From positions 744,001-808,000 of the forward strand of contig NZ_ML214297.1 of the NCBI RefSeq assembly GCF_004698125.1: DNA of 64,000 nucleotides. Direction: 5' to 3'. Below the pieces are notes generated by a model. The model searched no databases. It was given only the letters and a program-made list of their open reading frames with translations, and was not told the origin of the DNA. Both the position numbers and the translations under genes were made by a program. The stretch comes from Halosimplex halophilum. GTDB lineage: Archaea; Halobacteriota; Halobacteria; Halobacteriales; Haloarculaceae. This document shows, one piece after another, positions 23,937 through 26,794 of the stretch (positions within the stretch are counted from its first letter, which is position 1; each line of letters opens with the position of its first letter).

Positions 23937-24713
23937 TCAGCGGGTCGATTCGACGAGGTCCAGGAGGCGGTCGACACAGTCGACGAACTCGTCGTCGGTC
24001 CGGTCGCGGGGGCGTGGGAGATCGATCCGGACATCTGCGCGGACACGACCGGGCGTTCCCGACAGGACGAGCACCCGGTCGGCGAGCGTGACCGCCTCTT
24101 CGATGTCGTGTGTGACGAACAGGACCGTCTTGTCCAGCTCGCGCCAGATGGACAGCAACTCCGCTCCGAGGTGGCGGCGCGTCTGGGCGTCGACGCTCCC
24201 GAACGGTTCGTCCAGCAGTAACATCCCCGGGTCGACCGCGAGCGCACGGGCGAGGCCCACGCGCTGTTTCATGCCACCGGACAGTTCCGACGGGTACGCC
24301 TCCGCCCGGTCGTCCAGCCCGACCAGTTCCAGCATCTCGCGGACGCGGTCGGTCCGTCGGGGCGCCGGAACCCCCGCCTCGACCAGCCCGAAGGCGACGT
24401 TCTCCCGGACGGACAGCCAGGGGAACAGGCGATACTCCTGGAATACCATGGCCCGGTCGGGACCGGGGGCCACGACGGGTTCCCCGTCCACGAGGATCCG
24501 GCCGTCTGTCGGCGTTTCGAGCCCACCGACGAGGCGGACGAGGGTCGTCTTGCCGCAGCCCGACGGTCCGACCACGGTCACGAACTCGCCGGGGTCGACG
24601 GCGAAAGACACGTCCGCGAGGGCCGTCGTCGCCCCGCCGTCGGTAGCGTCGTACCGCTTGGAGACGGTTTCGGCTTCGATCGCGGGCGCCGTCGCGCGGT
24701 CGCGTTCGGTCAT
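23937..24713 (-). CDS. ABC transporter ATP-binding protein, nitrate/sulfonate/taurine type (SsuB/TauB-like)
   Basis: 258 residues. Walker A is GPSGCGKTT, Q-loop VFQEYRLFPWLSV, the signature LSGGMKQRVGLARAL, Walker B MLLLDEPFGSVD, and the switch histidine is in FVTHDIEEA. The start at 24713 overlaps the stop of the permease gene (ATGA), the normal order in this operon type. It powers the permease at 24710-25528 with the binding protein at 25530-26603. See the binding-protein gene for the likely metal-dependent regulation. Confidence 0.92.
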   Translation of the reverse strand: MTERDRATAPAIEAETVSKRYDATDGGATTALADVSFAVDPGEFVTVVGPSGCGKTTLVRLVGGLETPTDGRILVDGEPVVAPGPDRAMVFQEYRLFPWLSVRENVAFGLVEAGVPAPRRTDRVREMLELVGLDDRAEAYPSELSGGMKQRVGLARALAVDPGMLLLDEPFGSVDAQTRRHLGAELLSIWRELDKTVLFVTHDIEEAVTLADRVLVLSGTPGRVRADVRIDLPRPRDRTDDEFVDCVDRLLDLVESTR

Positions 24714-25528
24714 GCTCGCCACCTGAGGAGCCTCGCTTCGAGCCTGCGAACGCACCAGTCGCTCGCGAGGAACACCCCGCTGATCGCGAGCATGTACGCG
24801 ACGCTGCGTTCCATCGCGAGGTTGTTCGCGCTCGTGATGATCTCGTAGCCGACGCCGGGCGCGCCGAACAGTTCCGCGGCGATCACCATCATCCAGCACT
24901 GTCCGACGCTCGTCCGGACCCCGGTCAGCAGTTCGGGCATCGCGTCCGGGACGACCACCCGGCGGATCAGCCGGTACTCCCCGTCGACCCCGAGGGTCGC
25001 CGCCACCTCTAGCAGGTCCCTGGAGGCGTTCTCGACGCCGCTGTAGGCGTTGTAGAACGTGATCCAGAACGCGCCGACGAACACGATGAACGCCGCTCCG
25101 GTGTGCCCGAGTCCGAACCAGATGATCGCGAAGACGATCCAGGCCAGGGGCGGGACGGGACGCAACACCCGGACGACGGGGGTCAACACGTCGTCCAGCC
25201 ACCGGAACCAGCCCATGGCGATCCCGAGCGCGGCCCCCGCCGTCACCCCCGCGACGACACCGGGGAGATAGTGGACGAGGCTCTGTCCCAGGTGGACGAA
25301 CAGCGCGCCGCTGACGGTCTCGGCCTGGAGCGCCCGACCCACTTCCGCCGGGCCGGGGAGCAGATACGTCGGCTGCGTGCTCGCGGCCGCCCACCAGACC
25401 CCGAGGAACGCGACCGTCCCGGCGGCCCCGCGCCGGACTCGGACGAAGTCCCACTCCCTGTCGACCGGCCGGCCCGCCGACTCGCGGCCGCGGTCGGTCC
25501 CCTCGCCCGTCTCGAATTCGGTCGCCAT
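24710..25528 (-). CDS. ABC transporter permease, nitrate/sulfonate/taurine type (SsuC/TauC-like)
   Basis: 272 residues. An N-terminal polar lead of about 30 residues precedes six or so membrane helices, with the cytoplasmic coupling loop around RDLLEVAATLGVDGEYRLIR. The PLAWIVFAIIWFGLG stretch is characteristic of SsuC/TauC permeases. It starts 1 bp before the stop of the binding-protein gene and overlaps the ATPase gene, so the three genes form one tight operon. Confidence 0.9.
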   Translation of the reverse strand: MATEFETGEGTDRGRESAGRPVDREWDFVRVRRGAAGTVAFLGVWWAAASTQPTYLLPGPAEVGRALQAETVSGALFVHLGQSLVHYLPGVVAGVTAGAALGIAMGWFRWLDDVLTPVVRVLRPVPPLAWIVFAIIWFGLGHTGAAFIVFVGAFWITFYNAYSGVENASRDLLEVAATLGVDGEYRLIRRVVVPDAMPELLTGVRTSVGQCWMMVIAAELFGAPGVGYEIITSANNLAMERSVAYMLAISGVFLASDWCVRRLEARLLRWRA

Positions 25529-25529
25529 C

Positions 25530-26603
25530 CTACGAGGTCACGTCCCGGTAGACCGACGGGTCGAATATCTCGTCGGTCCCGACGGGGTCGGAGAGCTGGC
25601 CCAGCGCGCGCATCCGTTCGATGCAGACCTCGGTGCCGTCGACGATAGCCCGCGGGTCCGAGACGTAGCTGGAGAGCGGCGAGCGGACGGCCTGCTCGGC
25701 GAGGTCGCGTGACAGGCGGTCGCCGAAGGCACTGCTTACCGCCCGCGCCGCCTCGGCCGGTCGCTCGGTGATGAGTTCCGTCGCGTTGACGTGCTCGCGG
25801 ACTACCGCGTTCGCGACCTCCGGGTGGTCGTCCCGGACCCTGTCGTGCATGAACATGACGCCGCCCGGGGAGTCGGACATGAACGCGCCGGCGCGGGTGA
25901 TCCGACGGAACGGCGCGTCCCGGGCGTCGAGCACGGTAGGGATCGGTTCCATGATGAGCGTCCCGTCGGCGTTCCCGGACAGCAGCGACCGCCGGACCGG
26001 GCCGAGCCCGGCCATGTTCTCGACCTCGACCCCGTCGGCGCCGACCCCGAGCTCCTCGTCGAGCCACTGCCGCAACAGCACGTACGCGACGCTGCCCTTC
26101 GGGAACGTCGAGAACCTGAACCGGCGGCCGTGTCGCGCCCGGAACTCCGCGAACGCGTCGGCCCCGTGTTCGTCGTAGAGCGCCGCGAACTCCTCGCTCG
26201 TGACGACCGCGAACCCGCCCGTCTGGTTCGCCGCAGTCACCTTCCCCGGGATGCCCTCGTGTTTCATGCGGATCGCCGGCGTGATCCCGACGAACGCCAC
26301 GTCCACGTCGCCGTCGGAGTAGGCCGACACGATGTTCAGTCCCTGGTTGGCGAAGTTCGTCGCCTCGACCGACGGGTCGATATCGGACAGCGCGTCCCGT
26401 TCGTCCATCACGAGAAACTGCAGGAACGGGAAGATCGGCTTGTACGCGACCGAGAGCGTCTCGAGACCGCTCCCGCCCAGCACCGACCCGCACCCCGCGA
26501 GACCGCTCGCGGTCGCGACACCGCCGGCTTTCAGGAACCTCCGTCGGGTGGCACTGGCCGTCCCGGACTGCACGCCCGATTTTTTAGGCTTGCCTAAATC
26601 CAT
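25530..26603 (-). CDS. Tat lipoprotein, SsuA/NMT1-like ABC solute-binding protein
   Basis: 357 residues. The ATG at 26603 is favoured by a TATA-like TTTTATC about 28 bp upstream and by the Tat lead ATRRRFLKAGGVATASGLAG ending in the lipobox Cys. The fold resembles the SsuA/TauA/NMT1 group (sulfonates, nitrate, thiamine precursors): LSVAYKPIFPFLQFLV and DVAFVGITPAIRMKHEG. The first codons contain a DtxR-like dyad (26583-26598), which points to iron or manganese control. The ligand may therefore be a metal-linked compound, but this is inference. A GTG start at about 26570 downstream of the dyad is possible. Confidence 0.88.
   Translation of the reverse strand: MDLGKPKKSGVQSGTASATRRRFLKAGGVATASGLAGCGSVLGGSGLETLSVAYKPIFPFLQFLVMDERDALSDIDPSVEATNFANQGLNIVSAYSDGDVDVAFVGITPAIRMKHEGIPGKVTAANQTGGFAVVTSEEFAALYDEHGADAFAEFRARHGRRFRFSTFPKGSVAYVLLRQWLDEELGVGADGVEVENMAGLGPVRRSLLSGNADGTLIMEPIPTVLDARDAPFRRITRAGAFMSDSPGGVMFMHDRVRDDHPEVANAVVREHVNATELITERPAEAARAVSSAFGDRLSRDLAEQAVRSPLSSYVSDPRAIVDGTEVCIERMRALGQLSDPVGTDEIFDPSVYRDVTS
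26583..26598 (-). promoter_or_regulatory. DtxR-like dyad at the start of the Ssu-type ABC operon
   Basis: TTTAGGC-TT-GCCTAAA is a perfect 7-2-7 palindrome covering codons 2 to 7 of the binding-protein gene. It lies about +5 to +20 from the transcript start implied by the TATA box at about 26628-26635. TTAGG(C/T)...(G/A)CCTAA is the core of DtxR-family metal-repressor sites. The fit is by eye. Confidence 0.55.
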
Positions 26604-26794
26604 GCCCGGAGCTTTCGTCGGGCGAGTGATAAAATCTGTCCCGAACGGGATCGGCTCCAGTGCCGGATCGGTTCGTCGGGTCGGACCGCGCCCGGCGTCT
26701 GGACGCTCCCTTCGACGGGGGATACACTGCTGGGAACGGGTGAACGGAAAGAACACGCAGCGTCGGCGGGCCCGGTCGATCCGGGCCGGAGCCG

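Follow-up and report, generated by a model that had tools for sequence, protein, structure and literature searches.

A candidate DtxR-type metal operator within the coding start of a predicted leaderless ABC importer operon in Halosimplex halophilum

A transporter operon that begins with a perfect dyad

The window analysed here is a 64 kb stretch of DNA (69% GC) from the 4.47 Mb genome of Halosimplex halophilum. The locus under study is an ABC transporter operon with the following features:

26635-26628, minus strand: TATA-like box, ATTTTATC, A/T-rich, about 27 bases upstream of the ATG
26583-26598, no strand assigned: putative operator dyad of the DtxR type, TTTAGGC-TT-GCCTAAA, spanning codons 2-7 of the binding-protein gene and conserved in eight orthologues
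25530-26603, minus strand: Tat lipoprotein, NMT1-like solute-binding protein of 357 aa (Pfam NMT1_2)
24710-25528, minus strand: ABC permease (BPD_transp_1); nearest curated models SaoP/TauC/SsuC, all below cut-off
23937-24713, minus strand: ABC ATPase; nearest curated models SaoA/TauB/NrtCD, all below cut-off

The ATG of the binding protein lies at 26603-26601 on the minus strand, and the ATPase gene overlaps the permease stop. The binding protein reads MDLGKPKKSGVQSGTASATRRRFLKAGG...LAGCG, a Tat lipoprotein signal with a twin arginine at about residue 20 and the lipobox LAGC, and its N-terminus, MDLGKPKK, is encoded by the operator. The operon had been labelled as Ssu/Tau-type. This label holds at the superfamily level, with the binding protein scoring 72.2 bits against Pfam NMT1_2 (gathering score 24.7), but not below it: SsuA_fam (TIGR01728) gave 54.6 bits, under the curated cut-off of 163.5, and for the transporter proteins all Ssu, Tau, Nrt and Sao models stayed under their cut-offs. 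When the structure of the binding protein was predicted, with three sequences as input, the mean pLDDT was 35; a sequence search of solved structures returned no relative.

The original prediction placed a perfect palindrome over codons 2-7 of the lipoprotein gene, just past the transcript start, with a TTAGG...CCTAA core of the DtxR type. The dyad, TTTAGGCTTGCCTAAA, is found exactly at 26583-26598, where it begins with the third base of codon 2 of MDLGKPKK and extends through codon 7. It is an inverted repeat with half-sites of this kind and stands above chance level: allowing up to 2 mismatches, TTTAGGCTTGCCTAAA matched once in the window, against 0.01 matches expected from shuffles. Because ATTTTATC lies about 27 bases upstream of the ATG, the transcript is probably leaderless, with a predicted start near 26604 and the dyad at about +6 to +21. 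In a second genome (G185), a T-run precedes the ATG of the orthologue by an equal distance. A GTG at codon 11 was considered as the start of the window gene and judged unlikely; the sole ground for excluding it is the analogy with orthologues that lack such a codon.

The dyad is conserved in register inside the coding sequence

We compared the window gene with eight close orthologues of 47-77% identity, from Haloarcula argentinensis, H. sebkhae, H. halophila, H. sinaiiensis and the genomes G185, G083, G055 and G077, giving nine sequences from two families. The dyad occupied the same coding register over codons 2-7 in all nine, where it encodes the peptide M-(x)-x-L-G-x-P-[KN]. Across these sequences, 10 of 12 core positions were invariant, compared with a mean conservation of 56-65% in the flanks. 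No dyad was present within 300 bases upstream or 120 bases downstream in 23 remoter homologues (up to 48% identity). In a six-sequence protein alignment, M, L, G and P were invariant and the next invariant residues appeared only at the twin arginines; the residue between G and P varied freely (K, C, S, Q). The dyad forces codons that are almost unused, TTA (2 of 988 leucine codons, 0.2%) and CCT (5 of 563 proline codons, 0.9%). Judged by this codon use, the dyad is kept at the DNA level, and selection acts on the DNA. The earlier proposal of a joint evolution of operator and N-terminus gains strong support from the in-register dyad of the window gene and its eight orthologues, written in these nearly unused codons.

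Reading the codons between the dyad and the twin arginines, we found no ATG, GTG or TTG in seven of the nine genes, the exceptions being the window gene (GTG at codon 11) and H. sinaiiensis; with no start codon in this interval, the operator must be translated. Five orthologues (H. argentinensis, H. sebkhae, H. sinaiiensis, G083 and G055) carry a second, overlapping dyad 15 bp upstream with the ATG inside it (TTTAGGCATGCCTAATTTAGGC...), which in H. argentinensis has decayed to three mismatches from TTTAGGCNNGCCTAAA. The dyad-bearing binding proteins cluster in the tree (0 of 500 shuffles as low). A single origin for them was considered and set aside: the tree needs two changes, and the G077 branch is long.

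In Haloarcula sinaiiensis (NZ_CP073368.1, L184:7148-8083), the orthologue is annotated from a start about 150 bp downstream of the ATG that the operator overlaps, and the annotated protein therefore lacks its signal peptide.

A pattern of ATG, two bases and the dyad was searched for in 188 genomes, and 11 of the 34 matches examined were open for at least 60 codons. Seven of these 11 are Tat lipoproteins; MxLGxPK-type starts thus occur in other Tat lipoproteins of the class. Five of the seven have a second ATG after the dyad, which leaves the overlap unproven there. Many other matches were CATG overlaps or ran into an in-frame stop, and we dropped the pattern as a regulon-wide count on account of these and of the later second ATGs. 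A true overlap of operator and gene is proven only for the NMT1-type family studied here. Separately, a Tat lipoprotein frame in G060 (L091 at 1501) crosses two successive dyads, MSLGWPK...GILGMPKIM.

The dyad recurs at metal-transport promoters

The original prediction allowed that the dyad might be missing from iron genes and stand here by chance. A search of the genome found it at siderophore- and ferric-type transport genes and at DtxR-family genes, and iron-ABC operons of relatives carry it too, which speaks against that outcome. In the H. halophilum genome, TTTAGGCNNGCCTAAA has 4 exact matches and 12 with a single mismatch, and the reduced core TTTAGGNNNNCCTAAA occurs 14 times. This core was present in all 57 genomes of the family, at 1-24 copies each; the control, the TTTAGGNNNNCCTAAA pattern reversed, gave one match in all 57. 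The copies in the H. halophilum genome cluster at promoters, where the dyad usually sits between TATA box and ATG or occurs as a pair 34-38 bp apart flanking the TATA box.

Near C1:1.81 Mb, dyads precede a run of Tat lipoproteins, two of which match Peripla_BP_2. A dyad stands before a Peripla_BP_2/FAD/FecCD operon at C3:0.706-0.709 Mb, and others lie around a ferric-type binding protein/permease/ATPase operon and an Acetyltransf_8 gene at C3:0.568-0.581 Mb. Of only two true FecCD genes in the genome, that at C3:705795 starts 9 bp after a dyad. The genome has no IucA/IucC siderophore synthetases. In Haloarcula halophila, H. hispanica and Halobacterium hubeiense, iron-ABC operons carry the dyad between TATA and ATG. 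Iron regulation of the fhu genes has been published for Haloferax (PMC11349517). A ZIP gene in the H. halophilum genome has a weak site with 3 mismatches. Dyads also precede genes without an obvious iron link (a sugar transferase, a metallo-beta-lactamase fold, a carbonic anhydrase neighbourhood). The regulon may therefore extend beyond iron; alternatively, one site may serve several DtxR paralogues that sense different metals.

Several copies in this genome deserve separate mention. Two strong dyads, C3:480467 and C3:482103, lie just beyond both ends of the bacterial sugar transferase gene, which adjoins O-antigen-ligase-like and glycosyltransferase genes; they suggest that surface polysaccharide is under metal control. 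A pair 36 bp apart (C2:954371 and C2:954407) precedes a DUF5059 lipoprotein and suggests a metal role for that family. A perfect dyad at C2:14942 abuts the start of a gene whose product has DUF7551/DUF7552 domains.

Candidate regulators and neighbouring genes

Four DtxR-family genes are present in the H. halophilum genome. C1:670938 has the full set of DNA-binding, dimerisation and FeoA domains and C1:397137 the DNA-binding and dimerisation domains; at C1:1329538 and C2:408129 the DNA-binding domain alone was recognised. Dyads precede these last two genes. There are two upstream of C1:1329538, as in its same-genus orthologues, about 36 bp apart (3 of 3 in the genus), and a pair also precedes its orthologue in G077, which belongs to another family; no pair was found near four Haloarcula-group orthologues. 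This regulator occurs in all eight genomes searched, save for a possibly broken copy in G312, and no clear orthologue of C2:408129 was found in the same eight. We infer from these sequence comparisons that C1:1329538 is the best candidate regulator among the four paralogues.

A short ORF of about 21-22 codons (C1:1329438-1329530; L018/L035, L144, L145) starts directly after the second dyad before C1:1329538, and its TGA overlaps the DtxR ATG in 3 of 3 same-genus genomes. It may be a leader peptide with coupled translation.

In G185, Haloarcula halophila and G077, the transporter has a CopD-like membrane gene next to it. Further dyads lie directly upstream of this gene in G185 and H. halophila, and a methyltransferase gene in G185 also begins with a dyad. 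In the H. halophilum genome, the DtxR gene C2:408129 and a CopD-like gene stand on either side of a dyad, with a promoter region common to both. The CopD matches in this genome and in G185 are under the Pfam cut-off. As a weak hint, these neighbours point to a metal complex as cargo, possibly one involving copper.

Proposed mechanism and alternative explanations

We propose, with a probability of about 0.8, that the dyad in the window is a DtxR-family metal-regulon operator, situated just past a leaderless start within the codons of a Tat signal peptide, that represses the ABC importer operon. When metal is sufficient, most likely Fe2+, a metal-loaded dimer of the DtxR family would bind the dyad at +6 to +21 and block promoter access or escape of the archaeal RNA polymerase. 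Metal scarcity would free the dyad and turn on the operon of binding protein, permease and ATPase. The operator would encode just the n-region of the Tat signal peptide, which is removed at the lipobox, and the residues L-G-x-P-K would come at no cost to the protein; it can sit in the gene because the residues it encodes belong to the n-region of a cleaved signal peptide. Leaderless start, binding, repression and the identity of the metal, likely iron, are predictions from sequence. The cargo would be a metal complex, or else something that the cell requires when it is starved of metal.

The alternative that weighs most, although we consider it unlikely, accepts the dyad as a real DtxR-family operator and assigns it to a paralogue for manganese, copper or another metal, with the transporter acting in a copper or mixed-metal response. 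The four DtxR-family genes of the genome would accommodate this, as would the CopD-like gene beside the transporter in G185, Haloarcula halophila and G077, the dyad promoter region common to a CopD-like gene and the DtxR gene C2:408129, and the weak 3-mismatch site at the ZIP gene. However, siderophore- or ferric-type transport genes adjoin most of the strong copies with recognisable neighbours, and the CopD matches fall below the Pfam cut-off in the H. halophilum genome and G185.

The remaining alternatives deny or displace the DNA-binding role. The dyad could act mainly in the RNA, controlling translation as a 5'-terminal hairpin of the leaderless mRNA, for which its place at +6 to +21 of the predicted transcript and the ATG inside a dyad in the Haloarcula group could be cited. 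Yet no leaderless mRNA would include the many other copies that precede the ATG or the TATA box, and a short A/U-rich stem with a loop of 2-4 bases should, judged from the sequence, form a weak hairpin; we therefore regard this role as highly improbable. That the peptide LGxPK keeps the dyad, through a signal-peptide function and not through DNA binding, would account for the invariant M, L, G and P of the six-sequence alignment. It sits badly with the palindrome itself being kept, in nearly unused TTA and CCT codons and with a freely varying residue between G and P; homologues without the dyad are also without the peptide, and identical DNA is found outside genes throughout the genome. The odds of this explanation are very slim. 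A chance palindrome with no role is hardly conceivable given the shuffles, the in-register conservation in nine genomes, the family-wide enrichment and the rare codons. A regulatory role of the site is well supported.

A wider form of the proposed metal-operator model is tentative, and we would not bet on it at even odds: the operator would be fixed in the coding start of haloarchaeal leaderless Tat-lipoprotein genes, the n-region M-x-L-G-x-P-K would mark the regulon, and the NMT1-type importer with its CopD-like partner would serve in metal acquisition, perhaps with a metal chelate or chalkophore-like ligand. Under the operator model itself, an unannotated importer family is assigned to the haloarchaeal metal-starvation regulon by the evidence of a conserved operator, and a single stretch of DNA would be both operator and coding sequence where leaderless transcription meets a cleaved signal peptide. 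The resulting N-terminal mark could help to identify members of the regulon and to put start-codon annotations right, as in Haloarcula sinaiiensis.

Comparison with known systems

By half-sites and gene company, the putative operator is one of the known DtxR-type sites of haloarchaea; its identity with the published archaeal ferR/FetR motif is argued from gene company, not from motif comparison. The haloarchaeal signal reportedly goes back to Leyn and Rodionov in 2015, the source given by a citing paper. Haloarchaeal DtxR-family regulons (ferR/FetR, Idr1/Idr2, SirR, TroR) likewise have a palindromic TTAGG...CCTAA-type site at siderophore ABC promoters, and DtxR-family genes of the H. halophilum genome bear the site. 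In contrast to these regulons, the window site lies within the coding region of a predicted leaderless gene and would control an importer of the NMT1/SsuA superfamily instead of FecCD/feo, and the Haloarcula group has two overlapping sites that engulf the ATG.

The bacterial DtxR/IdeR box is a 19 bp interrupted palindrome, TWAGGTTAGSCTAACCTWA, with TTAGG...CCTAA half-sites and metal-dependent repression. The window site shares these half-sites and, as a model, the mode of repression, but its half-sites are 4 bp apart in a palindrome of 14-16 bp, not 19 bp. Like SsuABC, TauABC and NrtABCD, the window has one operon for an NMT1-like binding protein, a single-type permease and a TauB/NrtD-like ATPase; unlike them, its three proteins score far below the curated cut-offs, its operator is of the metal type, and relatives have a CopD-like partner gene, with no link to sulfonate or nitrate genes seen. 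SaoXPA (NCBIfam ABC components) supplies the best curated models for permease and ATPase and the second best for the binding protein, all under cut-off (32.5/300, 133.7/295 and 268.8/360 bits). A literature search, with most subscription papers outside its scope, found no description of such an arrangement. What we consider moderately novel is that the site lies where the coding sequence of a predicted leaderless signal-peptide gene begins, that it takes a tandem form about the ATG and that it is predicted to control this type of importer.
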